Source of the DNA: Jiangella ureilytica
Lineage (GTDB): Bacteria; Actinomycetota; Actinomycetes; Jiangellales; Jiangellaceae
DNA length: 64,000 nt
Direction: 5' to 3'
Assembly (NCBI RefSeq): GCF_004348545.1
Contig: NZ_SMKL01000034.1
Coordinates: 1 to 64,000, forward strand
Shown here: positions 2,922 to 10,977 of the stretch, piece by piece
How positions within the stretch are numbered: position 1 is the stretch's first letter
Layout: every line of letters begins with the position of its first letter
Notes under the pieces: generated by a model
Database searches by the model: none
What the model was told of the DNA's origin: nothing
Seen by the model: only the letters and a program-made list of their open reading frames with translations
Made by a program: the position numbers and the translations under genes

Positions 2922-4172
2922 GTGTCCACGCCCTCTCCGCTGCGCCACCGCGACTTCCGCCTGCTCCTCGCCGGCCAGGCGACGAGCCAGTTCGGCGCCC
3001 AGATCAGCGGCATCGCGATCCCGCTGCTCGCCGTCCTCACGCTCGGCGCCTCGGCGTTGGAGGCCGGGCTGCTGGCGGCGTCGTCGACCCTCGCGTTCGC
3101 CGTCATCGGGTTGCCGGCCGGCGCCTGGATCGACCGCTGCCGGCGGCGGCCGGTGCTGATCGCCGCCGACCTCGCGCGGGCGCTGCTGCTCGCCACCATC
3201 CCGCTCGCGGCCGTCCTGGGGGTGCTGACGGTGCCGCAGCTGATCGCCGTCGCCCTGCTGACCGGGGTCGCGCGGGTCTTCTTCGACGTCGGCTACCAGA
3301 GCTACCTGCCCGCGGTCATCGGCCGCGACCGGGTGCTGGCCGGCAACTCGGCGATGGAGACGGTGCGCGCGTCCGGCCAGTTCGCCGGGCCCGGCCTGGG
3401 CGGCTGGCTGACCGGTCTGCTCGGAGGCGCCGCCGTGGTGGCGGTGCAGGTGGTGACGTTCCTGGTGTCGGCGGCCGCGCTGGCCGCGATCCGCACGCCC
3501 GAACCCGCACCGGCGCCCGTCCCGGGGCGAGTCGGGCGGGGCCGGCTGCGGGCCGAGATCCGCGCCGGCCTCGCGTTCGTCCGCCGCACCCCGGCGCTGC
3601 GCGCGACCGCCGCGGCGAGCGCCCTGTCGAACTTCTGCTTCGCGGTGGCGGCCGCGGTCTCGGTGATCTTCATGGCCCGGACGCTGGATCTGTCGCCGGC
3701 GGCCATCGGGCTCGCCGTCGCGGCCGGGTCCGCGACCGTCCTGGCCGGCGCGGCCGCGACCCCCTGGCTGTCGCGGCGGGCCGGGTCGGCCCGGATCTGC
3801 TGGCTGGCACTCGCGGTGACGGGCCCGTTCGGCCTGCTGGTGCCGCTGGCCGAGCCCGGCTGGACGGCGATCGCCTTCCTCGTCGCCGGCCTGGGCGCCG
3901 GCGAGCTCGGCCAGATCGTCTACGCGATCGCCAGCGTGAGCCTGCGCCAGCAGATCACCCCGGACGAGCTGCTCGGCCGGGTCAACGCGACCATGCGGGT
4001 GCTGATCATGGGCGCGTTCCCGCTGGGCGGCGTGGTGGGCGGCCTGCTCGGCGAGCTGGCCGGGCCGCGGGCGACGCTGTGGGTGTGCGGCGCGCTGACG
4101 CTGCTCGCGCCGCTCCCGCTCTGGTGGGCGCTGCGCGGGGTCCGCGACGTCGAGCAGCTGCTGCCGGGCTGA
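2922..4172 (+). CDS. MFS exporter (MFS_3 / enterobactin-exporter-like)
   Basis: The 416-residue, 12-transmembrane protein starts at GTG 2922 behind GGAGG. The N terminus [19 protein letters not shown] and the loop-2 motif [14 protein letters not shown] are characteristic of MFS_3 drug and siderophore exporters. The substrate is unknown. It stands directly upstream of the ThrRS-like gene, 181 bases apart, with that gene's own promoter and leader between. An exporter next to a duplicated aminoacyl-tRNA synthetase is the arrangement seen in self-resistance pairs, which is only a suggestion here. The remnant at 853-1128 is a different, decayed member of the same broad family. Confidence 0.88.
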
Positions 4173-4207
4173 GCGAAAACCGCGCGCGCACGACGGTGCG
4201 AGATTGC

Positions 4208-4213
4208 TACCGT
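4208..4213 (+). promoter_or_regulatory. -10 hexamer TACCGT, leaderless transcript start for thrS-like leader
   Basis: TACCGT fits the actinobacterial TAnnnT -10 consensus and ends seven bases before ATG 4221, which predicts that transcription starts at that A. No convincing -35 is seen. The same hexamer and the same spacing occur before the leader peptide of the chorismate mutase gene (57585-57590). Confidence 0.5.
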
Positions 4214-4220
4214 CGGCCCC

Positions 4221-4274
4221 ATGCCGCAACGCGCGCAGCTGACGACGACGCCGGAGACCGTCCCGGCGCGCTGA
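4221..4274 (+). CDS. Threonine-rich leader peptide of the ThrRS-like gene
   Basis: The 17-residue ORF encodes MPQRAQLTTTPETVPAR, with three consecutive ACG codons and a fourth Thr codon two residues later. It begins at the predicted +1 of the transcript and has no Shine-Dalgarno sequence, so it would be translated as a leaderless message. It ends 12 bases before a strong hairpin. A CGCCGG/CCGGCG stem (4249-4254 with 4263-4268) lies just behind the Thr codons, where a stalled ribosome would cover it. This is the classic arrangement of ribosome-mediated attenuation responding to charged tRNA-Thr. Confidence 0.6.
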   Translation: MPQRAQLTTTPETVPAR

Positions 4275-4285
4275 CAGCTGTCCAC

Positions 4286-4333
4286 CGACGTCCGGGGCGA
4301 GTGCCCCGGGCGTCGCCGCGTGGTCACTCGCCC
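4286..4333 (+). terminator. Attenuator hairpin with alternative pairing before ThrRS-like gene
   Basis: Bases 4286-4298 pair with 4303-4315 over 13 base pairs (one G-U) around the loop GAGT. No U tract follows, which is usual for actinobacterial attenuators. The loop side (4295-4303, GGGCGAGTG) is also perfectly complementary to 4325-4333 (CACTCGCCC), just before the ribosome-binding site GAGGAG of the gene at 4354. The two pairings exclude each other, giving a ready-made two-state switch. Confidence 0.55.
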
Positions 4334-4353
4334 TCACTCATGAGGAGACCACG

Positions 4354-5565
4354 ATGCACGACCACCGCAGGCTAGGCCGCGAGCTGGACCTGTTCGACAC
4401 CGATCCGCTCATCGGCGCCGGGCTGCCGTACTGGCTGCCCGGCGGCGCCGCCGTCCGCCATGCGCTCGAGCAGTACGTCCACGCCGTCGAGCGCAGGGCC
4501 GGCTACCGGCACGTGAACTCGCCCGTCCTCGGCAAACGGGAGCTGTTCGAGCTCTCCGGCCATTGGTCGCACTACAGCGACGACATGTTCCCACCCATGG
4601 ACGTGGGCGGCGAGCAGCTCGTGCTGCGGCCGAGCCTGTGCCCGCACCACGCGCTGATCTATCGCTCGCGCGGACACTCGTACCGCGAGCTGCCGCTGCG
4701 CATCGCCGAGCTGGGCGGCATGTACCGCTCGGAGCTGTCCGGCGTGCTCGGCGGGCTGACCCGGGTGCGGGCCATCCAGCTCAACGACGCGCACGTCTTC
4801 TGCGCCGAGGAGCAGGCGGCGGACGAGGCGGCCGCGGCGCTCGCGCTGATCAGGGCCGCGCACGCGGCCATGGGCATCCGGCCCGCGCGGCTGCGGCTGT
4901 CGCTGCCCGGCGCCGGCGGCACGTACGCCGGCGCACCGGCGGCCTGGCAGCGGGCCACCGAGCTGCTGGCCGACGTGCTGGAACGGTCCGGCGAGAAGTA
5001 CGAGGCCGAGGAGGGCGAGGCGGCGTTCTACGGCCCCAAGATCGACGTGCAGATCACCGACGGCGCCGGGCGCGAGTCGACCCTGTCCACCGTCCAGATC
5101 GACTTCCACCAGCCCGAGCGCTTCGGCCTCGAGTACGTGGGGGCCGACGGCGCCAGGCACCGGCCGGTCATGGTGCACCGCAGCGTCATCGGCAGCCTGG
5201 AGCGTGCGGTCGCACACCTCATCGAGGTGCACGGCGGCGCCTTCCCGCCCTGGCTGGCGCCGGTGCAGGTGGTGGTGCTGCCGGTCGCGGCGGCGCAGGA
5301 GGCCGCGGCGCACGCCGTCGTCGAGCGCTGCCTGGACGCCGGGCTGCGAGCCGAGGTCGCCGCGCCCGGACAGGGCAGCCTGGGCGCCCGCATCCGCGCC
5401 GCCCGGCTGGTCCCGTACGCCGCCGTCGTCGGAGCCCAGGAGGCCGACGGCGACGGGGTCGCCCTGAGGCTGCGGGACGGACGGCGGCTCGACCCGCTGC
5501 CGGCGGCCGAGGCCGTGGCCCGCATCTGCGCCCGGGTGGCCGCCCACGCCGCCGACCTCTGGTGA
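4354..5565 (+). CDS. Short threonyl-tRNA synthetase paralogue (catalytic and anticodon domains only)
   Basis: At 403 residues this lacks the N-terminal TGS and editing domains of the usual ~650-690-residue ThrRS. It begins directly with the catalytic core (RLGRELDLFD; motif 1 region YWLPGGAAVR) and continues through motif 2 (MYRSELSG), motif 3 (VMVHRSVIGSLER) and the anticodon domain (WLAPVQVVVLP to the C terminus). The three zinc ligands that select threonine are kept (Cys in SLCPHH, His in NDAHVFC, His in MVHRS). The normally invariant NCPGH is LCPHH, and HRNEPSG is YRSELSG. Without editing it could mischarge serine. Family precedents include resistance copies for ThrRS inhibitors; this role is inference. 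Expression is probably set by the Thr leader upstream. Confidence 0.88.
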   Translation: MHDHRRLGRELDLFDTDPLIGAGLPYWLPGGAAVRHALEQYVHAVERRAGYRHVNSPVLGKRELFELSGHWSHYSDDMFPPMDVGGEQLVLRPSLCPHHALIYRSRGHSYRELPLRIAELGGMYRSELSGVLGGLTRVRAIQLNDAHVFCAEEQAADEAAAALALIRAAHAAMGIRPARLRLSLPGAGGTYAGAPAAWQRATELLADVLERSGEKYEAEEGEAAFYGPKIDVQITDGAGRESTLSTVQIDFHQPERFGLEYVGADGARHRPVMVHRSVIGSLERAVAHLIEVHGGAFPPWLAPVQVVVLPVAAAQEAAAHAVVERCLDAGLRAEVAAPGQGSLGARIRAARLVPYAAVVGAQEADGDGVALRLRDGRRLDPLPAAEAVARICARVAAHAADLW

Positions 5566-5593: not shown

Positions 5594-5654
5594 GTCGATC
5601 ATGGAGAAGGTCGGGTTCCCCGTGTTCCGGAGGCCGCCCTTCGCCATGATCAAC
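5594..5654. repeat. Imperfect palindromic element, copy 1 (GATCATGG family)
   Basis: GATCATGG (5597-5604) and GAAGG (5606-5610) pair with CCTTC (5638-5642) and CCATGATC (5644-5651), with one mismatch between the two blocks. It lies between the convergent ThrRS-like and tetR genes, and the tetR stop codon (5650-5652) is inside the right arm. Related elements occur at 10917-10977 and 21233-21304, and a half copy at 7795-7812. It may act as a bidirectional terminator, but there is no T tract. Confidence 0.6.
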
Positions 5655-6352: not shown

Positions 6353-7780
6353 ATGGACGCCGATACGACGCGTGCCGCCGGCCGCTGGCGGCTCCTCGCC
6401 CTTCTGGGCGTCGCCCAGTTCATGCTGGTGCTGGACGTGACGGTGGTGGCGGTGGCCCTGCCCGACATCGGCACCGATCTCGGCCTCGGCCGCACGGCGC
6501 TGACCTGGGTCGTCTCGGCGTACACGCTGATGTTCGGCGGCCTGCTGCTGCTCGGCGGGCGGTTGGCCGACCTCGTCGGCGCACGCCGCGTCGTGCTCGC
6601 GGGGCTGGCGTTGTTCACGACGGCCTCGCTGGTCAGCGGGGTGGCGTGGAACGCGGAGTCGCTGATCGGCGGCCGGATCAGCCAGGGCGCCGCCGCCGCG
6701 CTGCTCTCCCCTGCCGCACTGTCGATCGTCGCGACGACGTTCCACGGCGCGGAGCGGAACCGGGCGCTCGGCGTGTGGTCCGCGCTGGGTGGCGCCGGCT
6801 CCGCGGCCGGCGTGCTGGTCGGCGGGCTGCTCACGGCCGGGCCGGGCTGGTCGTGGATCTTCTACGTCAATGTGCCGGTCGGCGTGGCGGTGCTCGCACT
6901 GCTGCGGCGGGCACTGCCGGTCCCGGCTCCGGCCGGGCCCGGCCGCACGAGGCGGCCGCGGCTCGACCTGCCGGGCGCCCTGCTGGTGACGGCCGGCACC
7001 GCGGCGTTGATCTACGGCTTGGTCAACGCCGGCGACGACGGCTGGACGGCTTCCTCGACGGTGGCGCCGGTCGCCGCCGCGGCCGTCCTGTACACCGGAT
7101 TCGTCCTGCTGCAGCGGCGGCTGCGGGCGCCGCTGATCGACCCGTGGCTGCTCACCCGGCGGCCGATGCTGGCCGGCGTGTTGCTGATGCTGGTCGCGAC
7201 CGGGCTGCTGATCTCGTCGTTCTTCCTCGGCTCGTTCCTCCTGCAGCACGGGCGCGGGTACGGCGCGCTGACCACCGGCCTGCTGTTCCTGCCGGTGGCG
7301 GTCGCGACGGCGGCCGGTGCGCACGCGGGCGGGCGGGCCGTGGGCCGGCTGGGCCCGCGCCCGGTCGCCACCGTCGCACTGGCCGTGGCCGCCGCCGGGG
7401 CGACCCTCGCCGCCGTCGCGACCACCCTGGCCGACCCGAGCATCGGCACGGCGGCGCTGGTCACCGGCATGGGCGTCACCGCGGCCGGGCTCGGCGCCGG
7501 CTTCGTCACCGCCACCACGAGCGCCCTCGCGCACGTCGACCATCATGACGCCGGGCTGGCATCGGGCATCGTGAGCACGTTCCACGAGTTCGGCGCCGCC
7601 CTCGGTGTGGCCGTCGCCTCGAGCGTCGCCGCCGCGGACCTCGCGCCCGGCGCCGGCGGCACGGATGGGTTCACCGCCGCGTACACCGCCGGTGCCGTCG
7701 CCGCTGCCACCGCCGCCGTCCTGGCGCTGCTCCTGATCCCGGCCGGCCGCCCGGACCACGCCGCGCTTCCGGTGCACTGA
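6353..7780 (+). CDS. 14-TM MFS multidrug exporter (DHA2, EmrB/QacA type)
   Basis: The 475-residue protein carries the DHA2 motif D1 (LDVTVVAVALPDI, residues ~24-36), motif A (GGRLADLVGARRV) and motif C in helix 5 (GAGSAAGVLVGGLLT), and has hydrophobic segments for 14 helices. The family uses the proton gradient to expel drugs or secondary metabolites from the cytoplasm. It is divergent from tetR with two operators between, so expression is probably induced by a ligand of TetR. Its 3' end faces the SARP regulator convergently across 41 bases that include half of a palindromic repeat. Confidence 0.92.
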   Translation: MDADTTRAAGRWRLLALLGVAQFMLVLDVTVVAVALPDIGTDLGLGRTALTWVVSAYTLMFGGLLLLGGRLADLVGARRVVLAGLALFTTASLVSGVAWNAESLIGGRISQGAAAALLSPAALSIVATTFHGAERNRALGVWSALGGAGSAAGVLVGGLLTAGPGWSWIFYVNVPVGVAVLALLRRALPVPAPAGPGRTRRPRLDLPGALLVTAGTAALIYGLVNAGDDGWTASSTVAPVAAAAVLYTGFVLLQRRLRAPLIDPWLLTRRPMLAGVLLMLVATGLLISSFFLGSFLLQHGRGYGALTTGLLFLPVAVATAAGAHAGGRAVGRLGPRPVATVALAVAAAGATLAAVATTLADPSIGTAALVTGMGVTAAGLGAGFVTATTSALAHVDHHDAGLASGIVSTFHEFGAALGVAVASSVAAADLAPGAGGTDGFTAAYTAGAVAAATAAVLALLLIPAGRPDHAALPVH

Positions 7781-7821: not shown

Positions 7822-10683
7822 CTACGGGAGGTTGCGGGCGATGGCGTCGCGGGCCAGCCGCAGCACGGCGGCCCGGCCGGGAACGCCGCCCGGAGGCGCG
7901 TCGGCGGGTGGCGCGCCGGGCGGCCGGGCCAGCGGGGCATCGGGCGCGCGGTCGGCGGCGGCGTCGAGGATCGCCGCCGGGCCGCCGTCGCCGAGCCGGC
8001 GCAGCAGGTCGGCGAGGTTGCGCACCGTCACCCACAGCCGAGTCCAGGTGCCGGTGCGGGCGAGGTAGTCGATCACCTCGCGGTAGCCCTCGAGCGCGTC
8101 GCGCAGGCGGCCGGCGTCGGCGCGGGCGGTCAGCAGGCCGATCGACGCGAGGCCGGCGCCGGCCGTGGCGCCCGACGCCCGGAACCCGGCGATCGCCGCG
8201 GCGTAGTGCTCCTCGGCCCGCTCCCACTCCCCCGCCGCGTTGGCGATCTCCGCCTCGAGGTAGGCCGTGAACGCTCGCGCGCTCGGCGAACCGGCGGCGT
8301 GCGCCATGGGCTTGGCCAGCGCCCTGGCGCGGTCGTCGTCGCCGTCGTACAGGGCGGCCAGGGCGGCGATGCCGTACGCCGTCGCCGGCCAGGGGTCCGA
8401 CGCGGCCGCGGTGAGGGCGTGGCCGACGGCGTCGGCGAACCGGCCGTCCGCGAGCTCGGCCGACGCCAGCGTCGTCAGGCAGCTCCGCGCCGCCCGCGAC
8501 CCGGCCGGCGCCAGCCCGAGCCCGGCCCGGGCCAGCCGCTGTGCCCGCACCCGGTCGCCGGCCTGGTGAGCACCATGGGCGACGACGGCGACGACGTCCG
8601 CACGCGCCGGGTGGGACGCGACGACGAGGTCGGCGGCCAGGTGCTCGGCCCAGGCGCGCAGCTCGGTGATATCGCGCCACGCCGACGCCTCGAACAACCC
8701 GGTGACCAGCGCGGCAGCTGCCTCCATCTCGTCCGGCCGGCGGGCCAGCGCCCACGCGGCCCGCAGGTTCGGCAGCTCGCGGCGCAGGACGGCGTCGGCA
8801 GCCGGCTCGTCCTCGGAGGTGACGGCGGCGTCGATCCAGGCGACCGTGTCGAGCGCCGAGCGCAGCAGTCGCCGGTCCGCCGCCTCCTCCTCGCCGGCGG
8901 CCGCCAGCCGGTCGCGGCCGAACGCGCGCAACGGCTCGGGCAGCCGGTATCGCCGCGGCCGCTCGGGCCCGGCGACCAGCAGCGCCGCGTCATCCAGCCG
9001 GGCGAGCGCGGCGGCCGGGTCGTCGAGCCCGAGGCCGGTCCCGACCCGTTCGGCGGTCGGCAGGTCGACGCCGTCGGGGAACACCGCGAGGTGCCGGAAC
9101 AGCCGCCGCTCGTCGTCGCCGAGCAGAGCGTAGGCCCACTCGACGATGTCGCCGGCCGTCCGCTGCCGCTCGTCCAGCCGAGCCCGCAGCTCGGCCGGCG
9201 CGAACGTGGTCAGCCGGCCGGCCGCCAGCTCGATCGCCAGGGGCACGCCGTCGAGGGCGCGCACGATGTCGGCGACCAGCGGGAGGTCCTCGTCGCCGAC
9301 GGTGCCGAGCCCGGCCCGTCCGCCCCGCGTCGCCCGGTCGAGGAAGAGCGCCACCGACGGCACGGAGCGCACGCCGTCGCCCTCGGCGGGCCCGCCGGGC
9401 GGGACCGGTAGCGGCGCCAGGGGCGCCAGGCACTCCACGTTCACGCCGAGCGGCTCGCGGCTGGTCGCCAGCACCGTCAGCTCCGGGCAGCCGGCCAGCA
9501 GGGTCGCGACGGTGTCGCGGGCGGCGTCGAGCAGGTGCTCGCAGTCGTCGACCACCACCAGCCCCGGCGCGGTCGCGAGCACCGCGACGCACGCGGCCAG
9601 CACGTCGCCGTGCACGACGTCGAGCCCGATCGCGCCGGCCAGCGCGTACGGTACCGCCGCAGGAGACGTGACGGCCGCCAGCGGCAGCAGCGCCACGGCG
9701 CCCGCCCGGTGCGCCACCTCGACGGCCAGCCGGGTCTTCCCCACCCCGCCGGCGCCCACCAGCGTCACCAGCCGCTCGGTCGCGAGCAGCCGCTCGACGG
9801 CGGCCAGCTGCGCCTCGCGGCCGTACAGCGGGCCGGGCGGGCGGGCGGTCACCGGCGGGTCCGCGCCGGGGTGCACCGGATGCTCGGCGACTCGCGTGCG
9901 CCGTTCTCGCGGCGCCCGCCCCGTCAGCGACCCGCCCGCCACGGCCCGCTCGAGGTCGCCCAGCTCCGGCGACGGGTCCAGCCCGGCCTCCTCGGCGAGC
10001 CGGCGGCGGAACGCGCGCCCGGCCGCCAGCGCGTCGGCCCGCCGGCCGGCGGCGGCGAGGGCGCGCACGTGCAGCCGGGCGGCCGGCTCGCGCAGCGGGT
10101 CGGCCGCCAGCAGGTCGCCGGCCAGGACGATCGCCTCGGCTGCGGACGCGGCGTCGCCGGCCGCACCGGCGTCGGCCAGGCACCCGGCCAGCGCCTCGGT
10201 GACGTCGCGACGCAGCAGGTCGAGGCCGGCGGCGGCGCTTGCGAGCGGCTCGACGGCGGCCAGCTCCGCCAGCGCCGGGCCGCGCCACAGCGCCAGCGCG
10301 GTCCGCAGCAGCTCGACGGCGGCGGCCGGCTCGTCGGTGGTGGCGCGGGCCCGGGCCAGCAGGGTGCGGGCGCGGACGTGGTCGAGCTCGCCGTCGGCCA
10401 GCCGCAGCCGGTACCCGTCGTCGAGCGTCTCGAGTCGCGCGGCCGCGGGACCGAGATGTCCGCGCAGCCGAGACAGGTGGTGGTGCAGGGCAGCCCGGCC
10501 GGACTCGGGCGGCTCGTCCGGCCAGAGCACGTCGAGCAGGTGGTCGGCGGTGACGGCGCGGCCCTCGGCCAGCGCGAGGACGGCGAGGACGGCCCGCCGC
10601 TCCGGCCCGGGCACCGCGACGTCGTCGCCGCCGACGGCCAGCCGGACCGGCCCCAGGAGCCGCACCCGCACGGTCGAGTCCAT
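7822..10683 (-). CDS. AfsR/SARP-type regulator: OmpR wing, BTAD and NB-ARC-like ATPase
   Basis: The 953-residue protein has three parts. Residues ~1-95 form an OmpR-like winged helix (VRLLGPVRLAVGG, LAEGRAVTADHLLDVLWPDEPP, LHHHLSRLRGHLG, GYRL). Residues ~95-245 form the BTAD domain. A P-loop ATPase follows, with Walker A GAGGVGKT and Walker B LVVVDDCEHLL, plus the ATSREPLGV sensor motif of the AfsR/LuxR STAND group and a long helical C terminus. Such proteins are ATP-dependent transcriptional activators, commonly of secondary metabolism. No biosynthetic gene cluster is adjacent; its neighbours are an efflux pump and repeats. A GC-rich hairpin covers its translation start. Confidence 0.9.
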   Translation of the reverse strand: MDSTVRVRLLGPVRLAVGGDDVAVPGPERRAVLAVLALAEGRAVTADHLLDVLWPDEPPESGRAALHHHLSRLRGHLGPAAARLETLDDGYRLRLADGELDHVRARTLLARARATTDEPAAAVELLRTALALWRGPALAELAAVEPLASAAAGLDLLRRDVTEALAGCLADAGAAGDAASAAEAIVLAGDLLAADPLREPAARLHVRALAAAGRRADALAAGRAFRRRLAEEAGLDPSPELGDLERAVAGGSLTGRAPRERRTRVAEHPVHPGADPPVTARPPGPLYGREAQLAAVERLLATERLVTLVGAGGVGKTRLAVEVAHRAGAVALLPLAAVTSPAAVPYALAGAIGLDVVHGDVLAACVAVLATAPGLVVVDDCEHLLDAARDTVATLLAGCPELTVLATSREPLGVNVECLAPLAPLPVPPGGPAEGDGVRSVPSVALFLDRATRGGRAGLGTVGDEDLPLVADIVRALDGVPLAIELAAGRLTTFAPAELRARLDERQRTAGDIVEWAYALLGDDERRLFRHLAVFPDGVDLPTAERVGTGLGLDDPAAALARLDDAALLVAGPERPRRYRLPEPLRAFGRDRLAAAGEEEAADRRLLRSALDTVAWIDAAVTSEDEPAADAVLRRELPNLRAAWALARRPDEMEAAAALVTGLFEASAWRDITELRAWAEHLAADLVVASHPARADVVAVVAHGAHQAGDRVRAQRLARAGLGLAPAGSRAARSCLTTLASAELADGRFADAVGHALTAAASDPWPATAYGIAALAALYDGDDDRARALAKPMAHAAGSPSARAFTAYLEAEIANAAGEWERAEEHYAAAIAGFRASGATAGAGLASIGLLTARADAGRLRDALEGYREVIDYLARTGTWTRLWVTVRNLADLLRRLGDGGPAAILDAAADRAPDAPLARPPGAPPADAPPGGVPGRAAVLRLARDAIARNLP

Positions 10684-10916: not shown

Positions 10917-10977
10917 GTTGATCACGGAGAAGGAAGGGTCACCAGAGCTCCGGAAGCCGCTCTTCGCCATGATCAAC
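10917..10977. repeat. Imperfect palindromic element, copy 3 (GATCATGG family)
   Basis: The left arm GTTGATCACGG-A-GAAG pairs with the right arm CTTC-G-CCATGATCAAC at 10962-10977, with a single mismatch in the GATCAYGG block plus the same central A/G mismatch as in copy 1. The spacer (10933-10961) differs in sequence from copy 1. It lies in a 655-base gene-free interval between the SARP start and the xth stop. Confidence 0.6.

Follow-up and report, generated by a model that had tools for sequence, protein, structure and literature searches.

A conserved leader with ACG threonine codons precedes an ACG-depleted second threonyl-tRNA synthetase gene in Actinomycetia

A short open reading frame with three consecutive ACG threonine codons (thrL) precedes the gene for a short, second threonyl-tRNA synthetase (ThrRS2) in Jiangella ureilytica, within the 64,000-nucleotide stretch of contig NZ_SMKL01000034.1 analyzed here (the window), and in orthologous loci across Actinomycetia, where the synthetase genes themselves are nearly devoid of ACG. 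We consider it likely that the leader senses the tRNA-Thr species that read ACG, and that a promoter with a predicted WblC/WhiB7 box and an ACG-purged coding sequence would allow the editing-less ThrRS2 to be made without those tRNAs. The locus is real, conserved, and regulatory by its anatomy, and it has been partly described before.

Architecture and conservation of the locus

The window carries the following features from the ThrRS2 promoter to the end of the gene.

4175..4180, + strand: predicted WblC/WhiB7 box GAAAAC (consensus GAAAWY), 27 nt ahead of the -10 element
4184..4189, + strand: position of a weak -35 element, placed by spacing alone, with an 18-nt spacer to the -10
4208..4213, + strand: -10 element TACCGT, followed by seven bases and the ATG at 4221
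4221..4274, + strand: leader ORF thrL, predicted leaderless, 17 codons, MPQRAQLTTTPETVPAR and stop; identified from orthologues and the S. lividans thrL family
4242..4250, + strand: regulatory codons ACG ACG ACG, at 4242, 4245, and 4248
4249..4268, + strand: leader-internal hairpin of the 1:2 type, CGCCGG (4249-4254) with CCGGCG (4263-4268), from folds of the untranslated leader
4260..4266, + strand: segment 2, GTCCCGG, candidate anti-attenuator partner of the main stem 5′ arm, from partial-transcript folds with a masked ribosome
4286..4315, + strand: main stem-loop of 13 bp, candidate attenuator hairpin (3:4), from folding; present throughout the aligned leaders
4295..4303, + strand: segment A, GGGCGAGTG, comprising the end of the 5′ arm, the loop, and the first base of the 3′ arm; covaries with segment B
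4325..4333, + strand: segment B, CACTCGCCC, the perfect complement of segment A
4319..4353, + strand: predicted hairpin covering the Shine-Dalgarno sequence (SD), CGTGGTC (4319-4325) with GACCACG (4347-4353), from folding and covariation in relatives
4342..4347, + strand: SD, GAGGAG, from sequence; conserved in the alignment
4354..5565, + strand: ThrRS2, 403 residues with catalytic and anticodon-binding domains, from profile matches; member of a family nearly free of ACG and ACA

The first-pass annotation of this DNA had read the TACCGT hexamer, its seven-base spacing to a 17-codon frame with ACG ACG ACG plus a further Thr codon (ACC at 4257), a 13-bp stem at 4286-4315, and perfect complementarity between 4295-4303 and 4325-4333. 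All of these are present, and the last pairing covaries in relatives. The main stem pairs 4286-4298 with 4303-4315, including one G-U pair, around a 4-nt loop, and the sequence of the leader-internal hairpin is near-invariant among the aligned leaders.

The enzyme is likewise what the annotation had proposed, a 403-residue ThrRS that lacks TGS and editing domains but keeps its zinc ligands. ThrRS2 matches positions 171-562 of the 565 in TIGR00418 (425 bits, above the cut-off) and contains the Pfam domains tRNA-synt_2b and HGTP_anticodon; together with Cys96, His147, and His275, these provide the class II core, three zinc ligands, and anticodon-binding domain of a ThrRS. Profile and Pfam searches found neither the N-terminal TGS domain nor the editing domain of standard bacterial ThrRS. 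Judged from its sequence, ThrRS2 is presumably an active auxiliary aminoacylating enzyme. The genome search that the annotation had suggested located a second, full-length ThrRS (a 672-codon open frame, 42% identical, G000:C95:64967-66151), which probably makes the short copy dispensable. A short and a long ThrRS are both encoded in all 12 Jiangella genomes examined.

The layout is kept in nearly all of the roughly 100 orthologues examined across Actinomycetia. Named genomes yielded 80 orthologues, at 73-82% identity, from Streptomyces, Kitasatospora, Microbispora, Streptosporangium, Saccharopolyspora, and other genera. A predicted leader ORF with a run of cognate codons, the anatomy of an attenuator, lies upstream of the gene in 90 of 91 orthologues scanned (two genomes are each counted in two records), with the consensus M(K/Q)RA-x-TTTPE(S/T)VPAR and a stop codon 76-119 nt ahead of the ThrRS start. 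A TANNNT -10 element was a requirement of the leader search; it is mostly TANCGT or TACGGT among the 90 leaders and stands 7 nt (82 leaders) or 6 nt (8 leaders) from the start codon. The sole mapped 5′ end is that of S. lividans, where thrL of the thrL-thrS pair (SLIV_19412/SLIV_19410) was found experimentally to be leaderless (PMC8079986). Two Streptomyces genomes (L263 and L264) have the identical S. lividans leader, MKRVRPFLETTPGFVPAR and stop, ahead of a ThrRS2 gene free of ACG. The leaderless Thr-codon leader of the annotation thus belongs to a conserved family with one mapped member, and the comparison of related loci that it had called for finds both the Thr codons and the alternative pairing conserved.

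At the level of the class, a relaxed leader-RNA pattern matched exactly once per genome in 49 of 394 genomes, and the reversed pattern, used as a control, matched in none of the 394. Among 30 pattern loci, 26 were confirmed by script to lie ahead of a short ThrRS and three more by coordinates; the other, G237, lies at a contig end. A close ThrRS2 match occurs in 61 genomes of this 394-genome sample, including 48 of the 49 with the leader (all except G237). Eleven of the 13 ThrRS2 genomes without the exact pattern have a variant TTTP leader, and the other two (L232 and L235) are cut at a contig end. A leaderless-type TTTP leader with different downstream RNA persists even in homologues that share only 56-65% identity with the window protein, and these divergent leaders have little in common except TTTP. 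Streptomyces inhibens (L033:1-156), whose gene is close to a contig end, retains the hairpin and the A:B segments but shows no recognizable leader ORF.

Threonine codons in leaders and synthetase genes

ACG occupies the three regulatory positions in 86, 89, and 89 of 90 leaders, and accounts for 263 of the 284 Thr codons in the leaders (~93%). The 91 ThrRS2 genes contain 999 Thr codons, comprising 965 ACC, 28 ACT, 5 ACG (~0.5%), and 1 ACA. In flanking ORFs from the same records (n = 356, chosen by length and GC3, a few of them not real genes), ACG makes up 2855 of 8494 Thr codons (33.6%) and ACA 3.5%. The difference in ACG is extreme (Fisher P ~3e-155, relatedness ignored), and ACG is the strongest codon outlier in ThrRS2, with 5 observed against 336 expected (z = -22). 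No such depletion affects ACT, which shares the GGU anticodon with ACC. The avoidance is specific to the reading frame: ACG occurs in frame at 0.13 versus 21.4 per 1000, and in the other two frames at 54 versus 44 and 7.3 versus 6.2. The window gene has one ACG among seven Thr codons, a depletion that is not significant for a single gene, so the codon evidence applies at the level of the family. ThrRS2 is also poorer in threonine overall (2.7% versus 6.4%).

ACG shares in other genes are 30% for full-length thrS, 39% for thrC, 31% for tuf, and 37% for genes directly after ThrRS2. High expression was rejected as the cause of ACG loss because tuf retains its ACG codons, and a general property of threonine genes because thrC does so too; avoidance of the ACG trinucleotide in DNA or RNA was rejected because the depletion is confined to frame 0.

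ACG is decoded by the CGU and UGU anticodons, and ACC and ACU by GGU. The window genome has a single tRNA-Thr gene per anticodon (UGU, CGU, and GGU), so that ACG would rely on the first two and ACC/ACU on the third. The signal read by the leader is most likely the decoding of ACG by tRNA-Thr (CGU/UGU), not threonine in general. The annotation had proposed an attenuator that senses threonine or tRNA-Thr. Its attenuator-like anatomy stands, and the codon split between leader and gene makes ACG reading likelier than a general threonine signal.

We rate as unlikely a plain threonine attenuator that senses overall Thr-tRNA charging, with the ACG-free gene a product of translational optimization. 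Runs of cognate codons are typical of classical attenuators and ACC is the commonest Thr codon in flanking genes, as this explanation would have it, but that common codon goes unused at the three regulatory positions of the leaders. Optimization would also have to spare Val, Ala, Pro, and Leu, whose codon usage in ThrRS2 genes is ordinary with no comparable shift, as well as tuf and full-length thrS, which keep ~30% ACG.

Two further features of composition were seen in ThrRS2: a low share of asparagine (0.47%, against 1.7% for flanking genes) and an excess of the Lys codon AAA.

Promoter and neighboring genes

Among the orthologous promoters, 27 of 88 (about a third) carry GAAAWY in exact form at a distance of 24-30 nt ahead of the -10 element; the 13 control windows have none, and shuffles give a mean of 0.15. 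The shorter GAAAW occurs at this distance in 46 of 88 (about half), against none or one in control windows. The window genome encodes a WhiB protein that ends in the AT hook RGRPRK (L156), which we take as the mark of a WhiB7-like protein. With this gene in the genome and a GAAAWY that precedes the -35 by about 3 nt, the locus would belong to the WblC/WhiB7 regulon. The box consensus and its spacing come from work on S. coelicolor that counts thrS2 as WblC-activated (PMC7157823), and the same box and spacing recur in ThrRS2 promoters; binding of WblC at the Jiangella promoter is predicted from sequence alone. The -35 element is poorly conserved among the orthologous promoters, as reported for WblC promoters (PMC7157823). 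SCO3778 is named threonyl-tRNA synthetase (PMC10771440) and is presumably both thrS2 and the orthologue of the short ThrRS. No co-mention of WhiB7 and threonyl-tRNA synthetase was found in the papers searched.

The annotation had also offered the upstream MFS exporter gene (2922-4172) as the partner of ThrRS2 in a resistance module. This pairing was rejected: among the flanks examined, a close homologue of the MFS gene was seen near that of ThrRS in just two further Jiangella species and never outside the genus, and the exporter gene shows no avoidance of ACG (12 of its 22 Thr codons). Second synthetases elsewhere do confer resistance to inhibitors, as TrpRS1 does to indolmycin in S. coelicolor (cited in PMC9437257), but the narrow distribution and ACG-rich coding sequence of the exporter make a ThrRS-inhibitor resistance module quite improbable. 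A link to resistance, if any, would run through WblC/WhiB7 control of the promoter rather than the MFS gene.

Beyond ThrRS2, an imperfect inverted repeat of ~61 bp (TTCTCCATGATCGAC ... TTCGCCATGATCAAC) occurs in two copies, at 5594-5654 and 10917-10977, that bracket a block of TetR, MFS (6353-7780), and BTAD-type regulator genes; its exact half-site is found only at those two places in the genome. ARAGORN calls a tRNA-Ser(GCU) at 7950-8041 on the - strand, inside the BTAD-type regulator ORF (7822-10683). This call has no Rfam match and is thus probably a false positive.

Leader RNA, proposed mechanism, and known systems

After the Thr run, the codons CCG, GTC, CCG, GCG, CGC, and TGA are fixed even at synonymous positions, with a free codon intervening. 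Segment 2 shares these fixed synonymous codons and is retained even in frameshifted leaders: in L078, L231, and L233, the frame changes past the Thr run and the VPAR peptide is lost, while the RNA is largely kept. The fixed synonymous positions and the RNA-sparing frameshifts indicate that the leader past the Thr run works as RNA, not as peptide. They weigh heavily against a nascent-chain arrest peptide (MKRA..TTTPESVPAR), perhaps antibiotic-sensing like the erm leaders, which the strong conservation of the peptide and the WblC box at the promoter might otherwise suggest; with divergent leaders sharing little besides TTTP, we regard this reading as very unlikely. T-box riboswitches and autoregulation by ThrRS on its own mRNA, as with E. 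coli thrS, control ThrRS genes in other bacteria, but neither needs a translated leaderless ORF with conserved codons, and searches with E up to 10 found neither a T-box, with its specifier stem, nor any other credible Rfam family at the leader, which leaves both with hardly any probability.

The alignment contains the main hairpin, the downstream segment B, and the hairpin over the SD. Pairing of A with B and of B with the SD region are mutually exclusive, as B and its neighbors pair around the SD. The A:B pairing yields 673 paired cells against 652 ± 2 in shuffles, and B:C yields 739 against 719 ± 4. Parsimony on the protein tree gives about eight independent compensated changes for A:B, stepwise ones counted, which is few. 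One Streptomyces group replaces GCGAG/CTCGC with GCAAG/CTTGC through A and B and mostly in the SD flank too. In relatives, the Y-R pair that flanks the SD hairpin covaries, as does B with the sequence ahead of the SD. One Streptomyces leader (L089, positions ~4820-5000, ahead of the ThrRS start) has a long GC-rich hairpin in place of the segment B region and a main-stem loop, CGCTCG, that could pair directly with the SD flank.

When partial transcripts were folded with a masked ribosome, pairing between segment 2 and the main-stem 5′ arm formed in 100% of leaders for a stall at the first Thr codon, 70% at the third, and 0% at the stop codon. A:B then forms in 78%, compared to 2% once the main hairpin has formed. 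Equilibrium folds of the full leader did not switch, the main hairpin winning in every state, and forced 2:3 pairing with the whole leader present did not open the SD; any switch must therefore be kinetic. The folds discriminate weakly, since randomly recoded leaders form the anti-attenuator in 91% versus 100% for real ones. On this modeling, a kinetic switch with conserved parts is plausible. The two-state hairpin of the annotation holds in that its A:B pairing covaries, but A:B is probably a second layer rather than the primary switch. That role probably falls to the 3′ codons of the leader (4260-4266) in their pairing with the 5′ arm of the stem, an arrangement like that of classical 1-2-3-4 attenuators. 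No U-run was found after the main stem, where the window reads CCGCGTGG and relatives are mostly T-poor (e.g., TCGTCGT), which makes termination doubtful; we favor SD masking as the modeled output, with or without termination.

In the mechanism we propose, the WblC/WhiB7 box would raise transcription of ThrRS2 under translation stress, and the transcript would begin at the AUG of the leader with its three ACG codons. When charged ACG-reading tRNA-Thr (CGU/UGU) is plentiful, the ribosome would reach the stop codon and cover segment 2, whereupon the main hairpin would form, the SD-covering hairpin would close, and expression would be off. Slow decoding of ACG would instead stall the ribosome with segment 2 exposed, so that this segment could take up the 5′ arm of the main hairpin; with that arm occupied, segment A could capture B ahead of transcription of the SD region, and the SD would stay open and expression would be on. 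Because it uses ACC and ACU (tRNA-Thr GGU) almost exclusively, the ThrRS2 coding sequence would be translatable while ACG-reading tRNAs are uncharged. The observed part of this model is the conservation, the spacing of the box, the pairing potential with its covariation, and the codon partition. We infer the stalling, the structural switching, the level of output (termination or translation), and the selective charging. A more tentative, and on balance improbable, extension is an isoacceptor-specific emergency circuit in which ACG-reading tRNA-Thr fail by being uncharged, damaged, or unmodified, perhaps under translation-targeting antibiotics that act via WblC, and ThrRS2, coded so that it can be produced while ACG goes unread, may preferentially recharge them.

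Vecchione and Sello have reportedly described attenuation of the auxiliary TrpRS1 in S. coelicolor, in which, as at the window locus, the synthetase stands behind a cognate-codon leader and competing hairpins. The attenuated trpS and leuS genes of Streptomyces (PMC1262725) also combine a short cognate-codon leader with competing hairpins; the window locus differs in its synthetase, its SD-covering hairpin without an obvious terminator, and its ACG-purged coding sequence. The 2005 survey of Actinobacteria that describes them detected no RNA structure conserved across threonine operons (PMC1262725). The closest architecture is that of S. lividans thrL-thrS (PMC8079986), whose leader has two Thr codons in its run compared to three here; that study covers one species, without a tested mechanism, the codon partition, or the WblC box. 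In Anabaena, a stress-induced second, editing-defective ThrRS beside a full one (T1/T2, PMC4787780) resembles ThrRS2 but is under Zur/zinc control with no Thr leader reported. A literal search of papers for the leader peptide returned none, and the near-complete codon split between a leader and its own synthetase gene is undescribed in the papers searched, a set that mostly leaves out subscription papers and so makes priority uncertain. As far as those papers show, the new elements are the breadth, the WblC box on the leaders, the SD-masking layer, and the reciprocal codon partition.

Selective-charging theory holds that leaders should use the codon most sensitive to starvation (Elf et al. 2003, PMC1183508); it was worked out for E. 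coli, whose thr leader uses ACC, whereas the leaders here use ACG. By extension, genes needed during starvation should use insensitive codons. Both halves of this prediction meet here in one transcript across many genera, with ~93% ACG in the leaders versus 0.5% in the gene, and the theory becomes testable in laboratory Streptomyces by synonymous changes alone. The locus would also tie a spare synthetase to the WblC antibiotic-stress program, and it suggests how production of a key enzyme may continue when one tRNA species runs out.
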